Positions 27,053 to 60,144 of a DNA stretch of 60,144 nucleotides are shown piece after piece. The DNA comes from a virus: IMG/VR virus record IMGVR_UViG_3300025632_000016, positions 1 through 60,144 of that record; one strand, given 5' to 3'. The notes beneath the pieces were generated by a model. It worked only from the letters and a program-made list of their open reading frames with translations, had not been told where the DNA came from and ran no database searches. Made by a program: the position numbers and the translations under genes. Within the stretch, counting starts at the first letter, position 1, and each line of letters opens with the position of its first letter.

Positions 27053-27451
27053 CTATCCTTTAATTAACCATTCTTTTTCGTAACTTTCCTTTGGGTTAGC
27101 GTGAATATATAAATGCCCTTCACGGCTGACTGCCATCCAAAGAGTAGAATCTAGTAATCTTTCTCCATTTCTTTTCATTTTGTGATGAATTTCCGTTGCA
27201 TCTAGGTTTGGATAAACTTCACACTTAGGGTTCTGCTCTAAAAATAATCTTCTTAAAATGGTGTAAGCTTGATTCATCCTAGCCCTTTTAGATGACACTT
27301 GCTTAATCTTTTGCCTTACTTTCTTGGTTTTTGTTTTAGGCTTGTATTTAGCGGAGCAATCTTTACAACCAAACTTTTTGGTAAAGTAATAACACATCTT
27401 ACCATCTTCTGTGTTGTTAGGGTCTTTACAGGGTTTCTTTTTGTTAATCAT
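27053..27451 (-). CDS. HNH-type / NinG-like nuclease domain protein
   Basis: 132 residues. An N-terminal Cys cluster (C8, C20, CKDC) suggests a zinc knuckle; a Lys-rich linker follows, then RRLFLEQNPKCEVYPNLDATEIHHKMKRNG and a C-terminal SREGHLYIHANP. IHH...N...H matches the HNH order seen in NinG-like recombination proteins. It lies between the RecB-like nuclease and unknown genes. Exact family uncertain. Confidence 0.65.
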   Translation of the reverse strand: MINKKKPCKDPNNTEDGKMCYYFTKKFGCKDCSAKYKPKTKTKKVRQKIKQVSSKRARMNQAYTILRRLFLEQNPKCEVYPNLDATEIHHKMKRNGERLLDSTLWMAVSREGHLYIHANPKESYEKEWLIKG

Positions 27452-31628: not shown

Positions 31629-33599
31629 TTAAAATGGGGCTTCGCTAAACTCATCATCGAATGAATCGTTTGTAGGCATAGAACTTATTCTTTCTTTAGC
31701 CTCAGATAATGTTTCTGGCTTTTTAAATCCCATAGTTCCGTTGTCTTCGTGCCACTTCCTTATGGGGTTAACTCCATTTATAGTAAACTCACACATATTC
31801 TTCTCTAAAAGCATTTGTATTGGGTTATCTCTCTCCGTTGGCTTCCCCCCAGTTTCACTTTCTCTTTCTTTATCAACATGAAATTCAGTGATAAACCTAA
31901 TTAATCCCTCAGCTTTTGTTTTTCTATGAAGCACAATTCCTTGGTCTGCCCTATTACTCCACTTGCCACCTCCCTCAACATCATCGACCCAAGGGCATAT
32001 AAGGTTTCCATCATCATCTCTTTTTCTTCTAGCCTCTGTATTTGTGTGTGCATTTAGATATAATGATACTCCCGTTCTTTCAGTAAAGTCTAGTATTTCT
32101 GATGCCATCCTATAATCATAATCGTGACCATTTTCCTTCGGCTTCTGAGCCTTATTAAACCCTGAGTATGGGTCTGCCACTATAAAGTCAATTTCTTTTT
32201 CTTCTGAAAGCTTATATGATAGCTTAAGTAGTTTAGGTATATCATTAATAAATCCGCCTCTTGCTTTTATAATTATAAAATGCTCATTAACCCATCTTTT
32301 AGCTAAGTCAAATTCATCTTGAGTCATTTTATCTAACGGCCTACACATATAAAACTCCATTAACTTTCTCTTTGTAAACCCAGAAGAGTTCTCTTTCGTT
32401 ACAACAGCGCCCTTCCAATTATGATAAACAGATGGCAGGCACATTTTATAAAGAATAGCGGTTGTTTTCCCAATGTTTGAATGCCCAACTATCACGCAAA
32501 ACTTACCCCTTTTAAATCTAAAAAATTCATCCATCTCTCTGCATCCAGTAGAGAGGCCTAGTTCTAATGTACCCTCTCTTACGTCTTGCAAGTATTTATC
32601 ATCCTCTATACTGTCTGATATATGCTCAGAAACACTTGATATTTCACTATCTTGGTTTTCATACTGCTCTGTTGGGCTTAGTTCTTTCTTTTGCTCACCG
32701 TATCCTTTTTGATATAAATCTTTTGCTGCTGCTGAGTAATCCCCATTATGATTTAGTACAGCATAAACACCAAATGGCGGATAAGCCTTCTCTGGCTCAA
32801 ACTGAGTACTGCTACTAAACGCCTTAAATAATTTTCTATCTATTAAATAGTTACCGCTGTGCAATGCGGTGGTATCTCCCGCTCGCTTTAAGTAAATCCT
32901 ACTTGAAGTTGTCTTTACGTCAGACCAACCGTGAGCGTAAAGTTCCGATAAACCATCTTCTCTGTCGTTATAATCATCCCAAGGGGTTTTTCCAGAAACA
33001 TTCATTGTTGACTTAGGGATGTGAACTTCTTTTATCTCCTCATCAAATGTTCTTGCGCACGATAGGATAACATCTCTCTCACTTGTCGATATGGTAGGTA
33101 TTTCTGAAAACTTACCCTGTATTACTTCGTACCCTTTACTTGGGAATGATGCTATGTAGCCTCCCTCGCCTCTCGTTTCTATTAAAACTTTCCACTTCTC
33201 TCGCTTTATAGTTAACTCATCACCTGTAGCTTCCCTTCGTGCTAATTTTTGATTACCTTGTATTTCTTCACAACGATATATCCAATGATAGCCGCCAGAA
33301 GGCGTTTTAAGTATCATTAAGCGGTTATATAAGCCACTTGCATTATCATTTAATAGTCTAGTGTACCTATCGTATAAATCTCCGCTTATATCGTACTTCA
33401 AATCAATATCAATAACCTCCATATTACCCGATATTTTACCACAAATTAATCCCAACGCCTCTGAATTTATACTTTGAGGTATTCTAAATTCGTGCTGCCA
33501 CTTAGACCAAGAACCTTCTGCGGGTATTTTCTTATTAGTAAGACCTAATACATTTATACCGCTATCTAAAAATCTTTTAACTAAACTTTCTTGTATCAT
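31629..33599 (-). CDS. Prim-Pol / RecA-fold helicase (primase-helicase)
   Basis: 656 residues. N-terminal bifunctional primase/polymerase domain: LGLICGKISGNMEVIDIDL supplies the D64-x-D66 metal site and TPSGGYHW the conserved His near 105. A linker of about 130 residues follows. The C-terminal domain is a RecA-type ATPase: GHSNIGKT Walker A near residue 371, a hydrophobic strand ending in D (IDFIVADPYSGF) as Walker B, then an Asn-Ala-His-Thr motif. This makes primers and unwinds the fork. It is ATGA-coupled to the HTH replication gene upstream. No DNA polymerase was found, so synthesis probably uses the host's enzyme. Confidence 0.85.
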   Translation of the reverse strand: MIQESLVKRFLDSGINVLGLTNKKIPAEGSWSKWQHEFRIPQSINSEALGLICGKISGNMEVIDIDLKYDISGDLYDRYTRLLNDNASGLYNRLMILKTPSGGYHWIYRCEEIQGNQKLARREATGDELTIKREKWKVLIETRGEGGYIASFPSKGYEVIQGKFSEIPTISTSERDVILSCARTFDEEIKEVHIPKSTMNVSGKTPWDDYNDREDGLSELYAHGWSDVKTTSSRIYLKRAGDTTALHSGNYLIDRKLFKAFSSSTQFEPEKAYPPFGVYAVLNHNGDYSAAAKDLYQKGYGEQKKELSPTEQYENQDSEISSVSEHISDSIEDDKYLQDVREGTLELGLSTGCREMDEFFRFKRGKFCVIVGHSNIGKTTAILYKMCLPSVYHNWKGAVVTKENSSGFTKRKLMEFYMCRPLDKMTQDEFDLAKRWVNEHFIIIKARGGFINDIPKLLKLSYKLSEEKEIDFIVADPYSGFNKAQKPKENGHDYDYRMASEILDFTERTGVSLYLNAHTNTEARRKRDDDGNLICPWVDDVEGGGKWSNRADQGIVLHRKTKAEGLIRFITEFHVDKERESETGGKPTERDNPIQMLLEKNMCEFTINGVNPIRKWHEDNGTMGFKKPETLSEAKERISSMPTNDSFDDEFSEAPF

Positions 33600-34411
33600 T
33601 TATAACTTTTTTCTGCTCTACATAGGGTAGAGAAATAAGTATTTGGATTACTCTGCTTCATAGCAACATTCCAAAGATGCTCTAATACATCTAAACTAAT
33701 ACCATTCGCTTCTGGTATTTGTGGAATTTTAACATATTCAACTTCTTCTTCTGTCGGAACATAATCCCGCCACCCTTCATTAGCAAAGAATGACCTTCCC
33801 GCTTTTATATATTTCTCTTCGGTTTTTTCATCGGCTACTTTTTTTGCGTATTTAATAACAGATGATTTTATATCCGCTCTTTCTTTCTCCCTTGCTTTAG
33901 CGTTATAGTATTTCTTAGCTACTAGTTTATCTTTCTTACGAGGGTAAAGCGACCAAACATCTTCAAAATCAGTTTGCTCATCTTTTTGTTTTATATGTAC
34001 TTTGTTATTATAAGTACTTTGTAGTTGTTGGTTAGCCGTTGACGGGTGAACCGTTGACGGAAAACCCGCATCGGTGTCAATCTCTTTGGTAGCAACGGGT
34101 TCGTCGTAAAATAGATAATTCTTACCCTTAAATCTGCCGCTATCATCAGTAACCATATTTGTACTAATTAAGTACCCTTCACTTTCTAGTTCTTTAAATA
34201 TAGAGTTAAGTGCATCCCTTCCAATACCAAATTCTTTCATAACAAAAGATTTGTGTAAAATCCAGTCATCAGGTAAGCTAAGTATGTAACATAAAAACCC
34301 CTTGGCCTTAAAAGAAAGCGTTTTATTTTGAACCACATCGTTATGCACTATAAGGAATTTTTCCTTCGGCTTAGAGCGAGTTCTCTTTAATAGTTCAGTA
34401 TTGTTGCTCAT
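33596..34411 (-). CDS. Helix-turn-helix replication protein (DnaD/RepO-like)
   Basis: 271 residues. Residues 1-90 form a winged-helix domain (NKTLSFKAKGFLCYILSLPDDW, FGIGRDALNSIFKELESEGYL). A variable linker follows, then DVWSLYPRKKDKLVAKKYY and KYIKAGRSFFANEGWRDY, the signature of phage helicase-loading replication proteins. It overlaps the primase-helicase by four bases, the classical initiator-helicase pair. Its long leader contains a hairpin (34439-34502). Confidence 0.75.
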   Translation of the reverse strand: MSNNTELLKRTRSKPKEKFLIVHNDVVQNKTLSFKAKGFLCYILSLPDDWILHKSFVMKEFGIGRDALNSIFKELESEGYLISTNMVTDDSGRFKGKNYLFYDEPVATKEIDTDAGFPSTVHPSTANQQLQSTYNNKVHIKQKDEQTDFEDVWSLYPRKKDKLVAKKYYNAKAREKERADIKSSVIKYAKKVADEKTEEKYIKAGRSFFANEGWRDYVPTEEEVEYVKIPQIPEANGISLDVLEHLWNVAMKQSNPNTYFSTLCRAEKSYK

Positions 34412-43745: not shown

Positions 43746-44027
43746 TCACTTATTTAAAATATTAGAGATAAAATCAAATAATGGCTTTACTTCTTTTATG
43801 TTTATGCTTATTGAGTTATGATGTCTGTTTTCGCCTACTGTAACCTCGTCAAACGTAATCGTATGAGGCTTACCATCTAAATACATAGCAGAACATATTA
43901 CATCGCTAGAAACGCCTTTAACCTCAATCCATTTAGAAATGTATCTATCCGTATTACTATCCTTACTGAATATTAAGTCTATTTCAGCTTTAGTTTTTAA
44001 TGTTTGAAGGTTATCTTCTTTTTCCAT
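43746..44027 (-). CDS. Unknown first gene of the early arm
   Basis: 93 residues, beta-rich after a charged N-terminus (SSDVICSAMYLDGKPHTITF, ENRHHNSISINI). Being the first leftward gene behind the central non-coding region it may be expressed earliest. Function unknown. Confidence 0.6.
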   Translation of the reverse strand: MEKEDNLQTLKTKAEIDLIFSKDSNTDRYISKWIEVKGVSSDVICSAMYLDGKPHTITFDEVTVGENRHHNSISINIKEVKPLFDFISNILNK

Positions 44028-44051: not shown

Positions 44052-44514
44052 AATAAAGCATCCTAACGTAAAGGTTAATAGAAGTTAACTTGAAGTAACA
44101 AACTGTGACATAAAGTTATCGAACATACTAGGTCTAATTGAAAGAAAGATAGGGGAGTGCATTAAAGCGCATAGCCTAAGTAACTAACATTAGTAAACCA
44201 AATCAACAAAGAAGGCAAGACCAAAAAAAACGTTTATCTAATTAAAAAAAGCATACTGCTCGTTTTTTCTTCTGTTATTGTGAGCTTTTCTTTATTCACT
44301 CCAATAACTCCTTCTTATCCGTCACATACCTAGCGCTTAGCAGCAGCCTTTCAATTCGGTGCATGGGTTGTTACCTCGTTAAAGACATCTCAATCCTTAA
44401 ACATTGCCCACATTAACGGCGATTATAAGTTGTTCTGAGGTTATTTAACGGCTTAGTGTCCGTGTATTCAGTCAGAAATGTTTCAAAAACACTGAATTGT
44501 ATGTACCTTATATC

Positions 44515-44626
44515 TATAAAAAAACCCAAGCTAGCGGCACGACTCGCATTACTTGGGTTTCAATATTCTTTCCGAAGAAAGGGTTATGAAAAATCTTTGT
44601 GGTTATCGTGCCATTTAAGATTGGAA
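44515..44626 (-). ncRNA. Candidate small RNA with UUCG hairpin and pseudoknotted terminator
   Basis: Minus strand. A -7 box TATATTTG at 44631-44638 starts it, and a perfect 9-bp terminator stem AAACCCAAG/CTTGGGTTT (44552-44560 with 44522-44530) followed by seven T ends it, giving about 110 nt. In between are CTTTC-TTCG-GAAAG (44568-44581), a classic C(UUCG)G tetraloop hairpin, and GGCACGA (44606-44612), exactly complementary to TCGTGCC in the terminator loop (44536-44542), so an H-type pseudoknot can form. No open frame of note. Could be a regulatory RNA, an attenuator, or a host-RNA decoy. Confidence 0.7.
44522..44560 (-). terminator. Terminator of the ncRNA candidate
   Basis: Perfect 9-bp stem with a 21-base loop and seven T on the minus strand. 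The loop carries TCGTGCC, complementary to the 5' part of the RNA. Confidence 0.8.
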
Positions 44627-44630
44627 AGGA

Positions 44631-44638
44631 CAAATATA
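44631..44638 (-). promoter_or_regulatory. -7 box of the ncRNA candidate
   Basis: TATATTTG on the minus strand; no protein start follows before the terminator at 44522-44560. Confidence 0.65.
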
Positions 44639-44810
44639 AACATTTTTTTATTATACAAACACAGTAAAAGAGATAAAAAAAAGAAAAAAACATATAGTTA
44701 GATGAATGAATATTCCATCATTAACTAAAAAAACAGCTATTAATGTAGCATATAAGCGACAATTTCAATCAAAATACAGCAGTTAAATTTAATATCTATC
44801 ATTATTTAAA

Positions 44811-44818
44811 TATATTTG
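44811..44818 (+). promoter_or_regulatory. Rightward TAnnTTTG -7 box with structured leader
   Basis: TATATTTG, followed by overlapping hairpins TTAACG/CGTTAA (44821-44846) and TTAAGG/CCTTAA (44843-44866), which are mutually exclusive. About 110 bases to the first rightward gene, which also has its own box at 44915. Confidence 0.6.
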
Positions 44819-44914
44819 TTTTAACGGTATCGTACCAGTGCGTTAAGGGTTTGGATATTACCTTAACTTAGACGAAGACAGCAGTTCAGCAACGAACATT
44901 GTTATTATTTTTAT

Positions 44915-44922
44915 TAATTTTG
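44915..44922 (+). promoter_or_regulatory. TAnnTTTG -7 box, leaderless start
   Basis: TAATTTTG, six bases before the ATG at 44929. Confidence 0.6.
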
Positions 44923-44928
44923 TATCCT

Positions 44929-45312
44929 ATGAAAGGAAAGAAAAAAAAGAAAACTGAAGTAAAAAGAACTAGCAAAGGCTTAGTTAGTTCTACCAATTAC
45001 AGTTCTATAAAGAAAACAAAGAACAAGACTAAGACTAAATCCGTTAAGAACGTTAAAGACACTAGCAAGTTAACTGATTTTAGCAATTTAAGAGGTGAGA
45101 GAGTTCATCCAATAAAATCTCAGACTTTCAAAAAAAACAAAGTAAACGCTAAGAAATCAAAAAGTAGGTCTGTTAGCGTAAATACATCTGTAGGGTCAAA
45201 CGGCTCAATAACAAGAAGCGTAGTAAAAAAGAGTACTACACCGAAGAAGACGGTTACTAGGTCAAGAGCGACTGGAGCTAAGCCTGTAAGAACCGTAAGA
45301 AAGAAGAGATAG
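44929..45312 (+). CDS. Lysine-rich basic protein
   Basis: 127 residues from ATG 44929; the earlier ATG at 44899 lies upstream of the promoter box. About one third Lys/Arg, with Ser/Thr/Val and no hydrophobic core. KKSTTPKK also occurs in the shifted frame of the small basic gene at 22619, suggesting a family. Likely DNA-binding or virion-packaged; unproven. Confidence 0.7.
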   Translation: MKGKKKKKTEVKRTSKGLVSSTNYSSIKKTKNKTKTKSVKNVKDTSKLTDFSNLRGERVHPIKSQTFKKNKVNAKKSKSRSVSVNTSVGSNGSITRSVVKKSTTPKKTVTRSRATGAKPVRTVRKKR

Positions 45313-48528: not shown

Positions 48529-48531
48529 TAT

Positions 48532-48539
48532 TACCTTTG
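48532..48539 (+). promoter_or_regulatory. TAnnTTTG -7 box just before a terminator
   Basis: TACCTTTG, followed only 33 bases later by a terminator stem; any transcript would be about 55 nt. Confidence 0.5.
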
Positions 48540-48571
48540 TAAAAAGAACATCTTTTTTCATGTTATCTAAG

Positions 48572-48601
48572 AAGTCCCTGCCGTATGGTGGGGCTTTTTT
48601 G
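48572..48601 (+). terminator. Rightward intrinsic terminator
   Basis: AAGTCCC, 11-base loop, GGGGCTT with six T. Separates the basic-protein gene from the packaging operon. Confidence 0.8.
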
Positions 48602-58698: not shown

Positions 58699-60144
58699 AT
58701 GGCAACTCAATCAACAGACATAACATTCACAACAGGTGAGTCTATCGCAGCCAAAAACGTAACACTTACAGATACATCTACTTATGCTTCTGGTGATTTA
58801 AGTTGGGCTTCGGGAGATTCAAGAATACTTGTTAAGATAGTAGACCCACAAGGAACTACATTTTATAATAATACAGACACATCTAGCCCCAATATGACAT
58901 CGGGTGGCTCTAGCGATACGCTAAGCCTACCAACTGATGCTGATTCATTAGTGGTTAGAGGCATTAATCTAGTAACGTTAACTTATTTCGATAATGATAA
59001 TGTAACGCCTACATCATTTGATTCTGCCGCAGTATCAGCGGGAGCGATAGTAGTTGGGACTAACACATTTAATACGGGGCAGTCAGTAGTTTATTCAGCA
59101 GAAGGAAACACTGTTATTGCCGCTCTTACAGATGGGGAAACCTATTATGTAAGTACTAATAGTACGAGTACAAATATATTTCTATCAACGACATACGCAA
59201 ACGCAATAGCGGGTACTGATTTAACTCTTGTGGCTACAACGGGAACTCAAAAACTAACAGCAACTCAATTTGAAAGAACATTTCAATTCGACAATACTTA
59301 TTCGTCACCAACGGCTGATTTAGACCTTAGTTATAGCGTAATAAACCCTATTTACTTTAAAGCAGTAGACGAAACAAGTTACGCTTATAATTCAGTAGAC
59401 CCTACAATAACGGGTACATTAACACTTACGCACCCACAAGGGCTAGGTTCTTATGTAACTAACATTGATAGTTCTACAAAGACATTAAACACAAAAGTAT
59501 TTTACTATTCAACTGACCCTGATATTACTTCGGTAGTAGCCTTGTCAGCAAATGCTACATATACATTTAACGGGTATTACACAGATGCAACTTCTACGGA
59601 TGTTACTTGGACACTACTAGATGCTGTAACGGTCTCTAAGGGTATCTATGTAAGCGGTGGAAGTGATGGTTGCGACCTTTATTGTTGTATGAAAGCATTA
59701 GAGCAGCAATTAGATGCAGCTATAAATACTGGAAACAAAACAGATGAAGCTAGATTAACGAAGCTATTCAATAGAGCGTCTAATCTTTGGCAGTTAATTC
59801 AGAACGCATATAACTGTGGTAAATCATCGGATGCAGCGGCTTATACCTCTGAAATAAAAGACTTATTAAGTTGTACGGGAGATTGCGGTAGTTCAGGAAC
59901 AGTATCTCAAGTAGTAGGTATAGGAACAACCCCTGCAATAGTAAGAATGGGTTCAGCTACAATGACGGCAGACGTTACTAGCTATACATTCACAGAACTT
60001 ATAAACTACAACTATGCAGATGGAGATGTAATCATAACCGTAGATGGAGATGACGTAGAATCAATTAGCACATACAGCATAAGTTTAAATTCCTTAACGG
60101 GAGAAATTACTTTCGGAACAATTGTATATACGGGAGTAAAGAGC
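58699..60144 (+). CDS. Junction-spanning virion protein, N-terminal part (partial)
   Basis: Open from ATG 58699 to the window's end; joined with 1-153 it encodes 489 residues. Ser/Thr/Gly/Asp-rich beta-type sequence for 330 residues, then a helical Cys-bearing segment (SDGCDLYCCMKALEQQLDAA, later YNCGKSSDAAAY, LSCTGDCG), then another beta part. Five to seven Cys clustered in one helical region could bind metal or form disulfides. It follows a strong terminator and promoter. Probably a tail or head surface protein; no family recognised. Confidence 0.8.
   Translation, partial: MATQSTDITFTTGESIAAKNVTLTDTSTYASGDLSWASGDSRILVKIVDPQGTTFYNNTDTSSPNMTSGGSSDTLSLPTDADSLVVRGINLVTLTYFDNDNVTPTSFDSAAVSAGAIVVGTNTFNTGQSVVYSAEGNTVIAALTDGETYYVSTNSTSTNIFLSTTYANAIAGTDLTLVATTGTQKLTATQFERTFQFDNTYSSPTADLDLSYSVINPIYFKAVDETSYAYNSVDPTITGTLTLTHPQGLGSYVTNIDSSTKTLNTKVFYYSTDPDITSVVALSANATYTFNGYYTDATSTDVTWTLLDAVTVSKGIYVSGGSDGCDLYCCMKALEQQLDAAINTGNKTDEARLTKLFNRASNLWQLIQNAYNCGKSSDAAAYTSEIKDLLSCTGDCGSSGTVSQVVGIGTTPAIVRMGSATMTADVTSYTFTELINYNYADGDVIITVDGDDVESISTYSISLNSLTGEITFGTIVYTGVKS
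60016..60141. repeat. Terminal direct repeat, right copy (circular overlap)
   Basis: Identical to bases 1-126. The three following bases differ from the left copy. Confidence 0.9.

Follow-up and report, generated by a model that had tools for sequence, protein, structure and literature searches.

The RNA predicted at 44.5 kb of the virus record analysed here (the window, 60,144 bases in total) probably belongs, as an orphan, to an undescribed class of Bacteroidota phage leader RNAs, in which a "kissing" contact between the loop of a 5' hairpin and the loop of an intrinsic terminator would tune the terminator that gates a replication gene. The class of kissing-terminator leaders as such is well supported, and we infer its expression and mechanism. 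The window represents a phage with Bacteroidota-type -7 boxes (TAnnTTTG); its terminase and portal share 22-30% identity with the corresponding proteins of Flavobacterium elemo, Cellulophaga, Maribacter and Tenacibaculum phages.

The 44.5-kb RNA and its locus

The leftward RNA follows the -7 promoter box TATATTTG (44638-44631, minus strand) and, with its start site deduced from this box, is predicted to comprise about 110 nt (44515-44626, minus strand, as are all of its elements). According to the RNA fold it begins with a 5' hairpin (AAUCUU/AAGAUU, 44592-44622) of 6 bp with a 19-nt loop, followed in the linker by a C(UUCG)G hairpin (44581-44568), which is not a feature of the class, and by an intrinsic terminator (44561-44521) with an 11-bp stem, a 19-nt loop and a U-tract reaching to about 44515. 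The segment GGCACGA (44612-44606) in the 5' hairpin loop is the exact 7-nt complement of TCGTGCC (RNA UCGUGCC, 44542-44536) inside the terminator loop. All elements named by the sequence-only reading, i.e. the leftward -7 box, the gene-free transcript, the C(UUCG)G hairpin, the terminator and the GGCACGA/TCGTGCC pair, were found at this locus. Its proposal of a contact between the 5' end and the terminator loop stands as well; the simple pseudoknot does not, since GGCACGA is enclosed in the loop of the 6-bp 5' hairpin, which had been overlooked, and the contact is thus of the loop-loop type.

No ORF of at least 50 aa fits into the transcript (44638-44515, minus strand), the 59-aa ORF at 44514-44693 starting upstream of the promoter, and a search for tRNA or tmRNA at this RNA found none. 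No ORF of at least 25 aa was detected within 200 nt downstream. A minimal ORF (AUG GCA CGA UAA, 44604-44615, minus strand) overlaps the 5' kissing segment; it is not a feature of the class. The 430 bp between the RNA and the next promoter (44088-44515) are devoid of detectable homologues and contain, on the minus strand, overlapping tiny ORFs of 22 and 21 aa.

Judged by its own chance statistics alone, the 7-nt match is only suggestive. An equally long match occurred in 1.2% of cases when the 5' part of the RNA was shuffled, and dinucleotide-shuffled windows contained on average 0.08 promoter-terminator units with a match of at least 7 nt and 0.02 units with the match inside the 5' hairpin loop. 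The RNA has a fold z-score of -3.6, and in the nearest-neighbour model the kissing structure is favoured by no more than about 4 kcal/mol, loop penalties not yet included. With the RNA and its flanks as query, BLAST gave no match in phages, and a scan of viral contigs for the pattern GGCACGA...TCGTGCC returned 20 chance matches, none of them with a terminator. Since the orphan has no sequence homologue, covariation is applicable to its class relatives and not directly to the orphan itself. At the level of sequence comparison, the reality of the loop-loop complementarity is settled by these related RNAs.

Three contigs are approximately 95-98% identical to the window over much of the genome. 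The match extends as far as position 44631, where the -7 box ends, and resumes to the left of 44088. The intervening region (44088-44631, strand not assigned) is exchanged, according to the genome comparison, for a cassette of about 960 bp consisting of a kissing leader, an HTH_36 gene and a 54-aa ORF. The box of the relatives at this locus is TATGTTTG, and the cassette RNA, AACAACGAGUGCAGUCGUUAG...AAUCCUUCCGUUAGUAGGCUCUGCACAGCCGAAAGCGUGAAGGAUUUUUUU, starts straight after the common promoter. Its 5' hairpin loop contains GUGCAG and the apical loop of its terminator CUGCAC, which are exact 6-base complements and both unpaired in the MFE structure. The HTH_36 gene, whose domain is found in phage replication initiators, starts 16 nt past the U-tract. 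The RNAs of the window and of its relatives share the promoter and one architecture, with no evident sequence similarity. By way of the terminator-loop motif CGTTAGTAGG...CCGAAAGCG, the relatives' RNA can be aligned with subfamily 1 of the class and is, on this alignment, homologous to it. Starting from the kissing loop, it can also be read as GUG CAG UCG UUA GAA AAU AUU UAA.

The window contains a second member of the class (34521-34415, minus strand) with the box TATATTTG at 34521-34514. Here GAGCTACAC (34502-34494) is complementary over 9 nt to GTGTAGCTC (34447-34439) in a long hairpin; the U-tract is poor, and this member may therefore act on translation instead. Directly downstream lies an HTH_36-like replication initiator gene (33596-34411, minus strand), whose product scores 21.4 bits against PF13730, just under the cut-off of 25, and shares 38% identity over 101 aa with the HTH_36 protein of the relatives. 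The relatives lack initiator and leader at the 34-kb place and carry their HTH_36 gene at the 44.5-kb locus, so that by this comparison the predicted initiator module occupies the 34-kb position in this phage and the 44-kb position in the relatives. No remnant of an HTH_36 gene is detectable after the orphan RNA at its locus; the initiator may have been lost there, or the RNA may have arrived alone. The position at the point where both transcriptional arms diverge, to which the sequence-only reading had attached meaning, is not essential, as the second copy at 34.5 kb lies inside a leftward operon.

The class of kissing-terminator leaders

Other phages were scanned for the combination of promoter, terminator and loop complementarity. 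In members of the class the promoter is of the TAnnTTTG type, the transcript opens with a 5' hairpin and, some 30-70 nt after this hairpin, an intrinsic terminator follows, usually with a long loop; the two loops share 6-9 nt of exact complementarity, and their sequences differ among phages. The same design was detected in unrelated sequences of elemo, Harreka_1, 11b, phi19:3 and dozens of viral contigs. The elemoF leader (GUGGAGG/CCUCCAC) precedes the replication operon and has homologues at about 70% identity, and changed but still complementary pairs occur in these homologues, elemoA (UGAGAGC/GCUCUCA) and Harreka_1 (GUGGUGG/CCACCAC), as well as in the 11b leader (CGGGCAGG/CCUGCCCG). Loop complementarity is also present in phi13:2. 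In phi19:3 one leader (CUCUCACAA/UUGUGAGAG) precedes gp007 (DUF6291) and another (CCUUCAC/GUGAAGG; L100, 23510-23610, plus strand) a YopX-domain gene, so that members of the class also occur ahead of genes other than replication initiators. Additional hits of a loose scan in coding regions (e.g. L101 5741, L066 8471) were dropped as low-complexity. A leader-like unit (CATCCAC/GTGGATG) was also noticed in a bacterial assembly, the Flavobacterium MAG JACMLU010000006.1 (L192, approximately 1658-1760), where it is perhaps part of a prophage.

In nearly all of the 32 strict members an ORF starts 12-31 nt past the terminator U-tract (the longest frame was taken for L175 and L192, in which the downstream ORF is ambiguous), and a small ORF is annotated close downstream of the Harreka_1 leader. 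These ORFs mostly encode DUF6291 or replication proteins, a predominance that is expected because DUF6291 proteins served as bait, with which 80 viral and 17 genome contigs were collected; YopX and small ORFs were found, too. Scanning the genome contigs with the HTH_36 protein of the relatives revealed no relatives. Of 40 records with 8-bp stems, 34 have 15-18 nt between kissing segment and U-tract, compared to 10 nt in the orphan; this spacing and the ORF at 12-31 nt are usual rather than defining traits. The 44.5-kb copy shows the TAnnTTTG promoter, a 5' hairpin beginning within about 14 nt and 7 nt of loop-loop complementarity, the threshold being at least 6 exact nt. It departs from the class norm by its additional UUCG hairpin, its 19-nt 5' loop and the lack of the usual downstream gene, the last of which makes it an orphan.

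The complementarity was evaluated in units upstream of DUF6291 genes, which had been chosen without regard to it. At least 7 complementary nt were present in 22 of 37 units, compared to 4% of cross-pairs with the loops of other units. After dereplication the proportions were 15 of 21 units and 9 of 420 cross-pairs, the contact being shorter than 7 nt in the remaining 6 units, and the summed match length of 147 (expected 94.5 +/- 4.7) was reached by 0 of 100,000 permutations. A comparable scan of the antisense strand gave no match of at least 7 nt. In L120, L123 and L126 the six-base loop pair of the window's relatives, GUGCAG/CUGCAC, was observed again in units lying about 1.8 kb ahead of DUF6291.

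In subfamily 1, pairing in the kissing helix reaches 98.7%, 3 of its 7 pairs being changed on both sides, and the covariation of the whole structure amounts to 0.324 compared to 0.142 in shuffled and at most 0.125 in slid alignments. Changes on both sides affect 5 of the 7 kissing pairs in subfamily 2 (covariation 0.552 vs 0.190). Homologues keeping neither the complementarity nor the stems, which the sequence-only reading had named as evidence against the contact, are not what the comparison revealed: in the related RNAs compensatory changes have preserved the complementarity, and the contact thereby survives this test. The loop pair differs between lineages, which amounts to a natural set of distinct kissing pairs. 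The kissing columns evolve no faster and are no more variable than other columns, so that there is no sign of a diversifying specificity code, and diversifying selection on the kissing pairs was discarded as unsupported.

Proposed role and alternative explanations

As the class is usually situated just before the gene that starts replication, it probably controls when this gene is switched on. The kissing contact would form as the terminator emerges from the RNA polymerase, as suggested by the 15-18 nt spacing of most members, and by bridging the long terminator loop it could tune the level of termination ahead of the initiator gene. The terminator would in this way gate the replication gene and release a compact RNA of about 100 nt. 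The contact may also act with the opposite sign and hinder closure of the terminator. Since the initiator of this phage has its own kissing leader at 34.4 kb and none follows the orphan, the latter should give rise to a stand-alone terminated RNA of about 110 nt, which would be a remnant or else a small RNA retained in its own right.

Leader control is usually viewed as a matter of competing stems, and the data presented here argue against such a scheme. The complementarity of the leader to the terminator loop extends over 7.6 nt vs 4.6 nt, and that to the two terminator arms over 3.8 and 3.8 nt vs 4.1 and 3.9 nt by permutation (20 members). Being confined to the loop, the contact does not appear to compete with the terminator stem, and a classic terminator/antiterminator attenuator or riboswitch was rejected because the leader is complementary to neither arm. 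A less strict duplex calculation, in which pairing seemed to extend into the arms, had no control and was set aside. The initiator genes of pT181 and of pIP501 (repR) are governed by intrinsic-terminator attenuators, whose mutually exclusive structures are switched by an antisense RNA. Like these attenuators, the class places a leader that contains an intrinsic terminator immediately ahead of a replication initiator gene; it differs in that only the terminator loop and not the arms is complementary to the leader and in that no antisense unit is evident.

The sequence-only reading suggested a regulatory or host-targeting RNA. A structured RNA outside the known families is what we found; the host-targeting part is not borne out, as the class members look like leaders acting in cis, nearly every other member being followed by an ORF start, mostly that of a replication initiator. 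It nevertheless seems possible, if rather doubtful, that the 44.5-kb RNA itself is a small RNA acting in trans on phage or host mRNAs or on the leaders of competing phages, with the kissing contact serving stability or a controlled exposure of the loops. The RNA is free-standing, the next leftward gene at 44027 having its own TATGTTTG box, and it shows an intact promoter, two intact stems and an unbroken 7-bp contact even though neither an initiator nor a remnant is detectable at the locus. The fold stabilises pseudoknotted small RNAs such as RydC (PMC4337610), which is a short, terminated enterobacterial sRNA that depends on Hfq and has a seed. RydC resembles the orphan in its pseudoknot-type fold joining distant parts of the molecule (PMC4337610), whereas it is not a leader and has no kissing between a 5' hairpin loop and a terminator loop. 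The trans-acting function is opposed by the leader nature of the other members and by the loop sequence, which no relative shares and whose complement is no commoner elsewhere in the window than expected by chance. One of three other GGCACGA occurrences, ahead of the leftward gene that starts at 27451, was considered as a possible target and rejected, as this number corresponds to the chance level; being located upstream of the -7-like box TATGTTTG, it need not be part of the mRNA.

Kissing might instead occur between copies, terminated leaders pairing with nascent ones and adjusting the initiator to the genome copy number. Such a scenario is comparable to the countertranscript control of plasmids. 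It would agree with the location of the class before replication initiators, with the loops differing between phage lineages and with a loop-loop contact that leaves the stem free, as suits intermolecular pairing. We regard it as unlikely, however, because the partner is provided at high local concentration within the same molecule, no antisense unit is evident and the kissing columns are not faster-evolving. Even less probable is a structured leader enabling the RNA polymerase to pass terminators in the manner of the put RNA of phage HK022, which has about 70 nt and two stem-loops and acts on transcription through its fold, putL being located just downstream of an early promoter (PMC9378689). 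The likeness to this phage RNA in place after the promoter, in size and in the number of stem-loops is set against the conserved sequence of put and its lack of an internal terminator and of a loop-loop terminator contact; in the present class pairing is kept more than sequence, and the second hairpin is the terminator. A chance or deletion scar, i.e. a promoter stranded before a terminator by gene loss with a coincidental 7-nt match, seems similarly improbable. This phage does contain a promoter-terminator scar at 48540, between the parts of which the relatives hold a 434-bp gene, and the match alone has a chance probability of about 1%; yet after this promoter the relatives have an RNA of the same architecture but of different sequence, and an entire class showing covariation exists. 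The scar itself (48530-48600, plus strand), a promoter followed at once by a terminator, represents a clean site of gene loss or gene gain.

Taken as a whole, the preferred reading of kissing leaders gating replication genes can tentatively be widened to a new phage RNA class in which a lineage-varying kissing pair would set the initiator on or off, and which could detach and act in trans on other leaders. The orphan copy would be a test case for a leader turning into a trans-acting RNA.

Comparison with known RNAs and further observations

In agreement with the earlier statement that it matches no known family, an Rfam 15 scan assigned the 44.5-kb RNA to no family at the gathering cut-off. 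The best sub-threshold match was PhotoRC-I (23.1 vs 45), resting largely on the UUCG hairpin. Among 19 loci, most of them with class members, no Rfam match was obtained except for a neighbouring tRNA. A search of the open literature yielded no description of the class, which is apparently undescribed so far in phages of Flavobacterium-type bacteria, and there is a real chance that the mechanism itself is new. The class thus adds to the structured RNAs one that is absent from Rfam and recognised by architecture rather than by sequence. It sits at the replication switch of many Flavobacteria phages and raises the question whether a loop-loop contact sparing the stem can raise or lower intrinsic termination.

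Two further systems invite comparison. The OOP RNA of phage lambda is antisense to cII. It likewise is a short, terminated, leftward RNA near phage replication genes, whereas the RNA described here is co-directional with the replication gene. Type III toxin-antitoxin systems such as ToxI consist of a promoter, a pseudoknotted RNA, a terminator and an endoribonuclease toxin gene. The order of elements is the same, but the genes downstream of the class encode replication proteins in place of endoribonuclease toxins, and a toxin-antitoxin system was rejected on the grounds that HTH_36, DUF6291, YopX or no gene follows.

On the plus strand at 44810-44930 a rightward TATATTTG box is followed by the hairpins UUAACG...CGUUAA and UUAAGG...CCUUAA in a non-coding region that is 96% conserved in one relative; it is possibly another leader RNA, without a clear terminator. 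Finally, positions 1-425 and 59267-60144 of the window match overlapping parts of one stretch of the relatives (81% and 97%), which indicates that the two ends of the record are probably adjacent, in a region containing a repeated domain.
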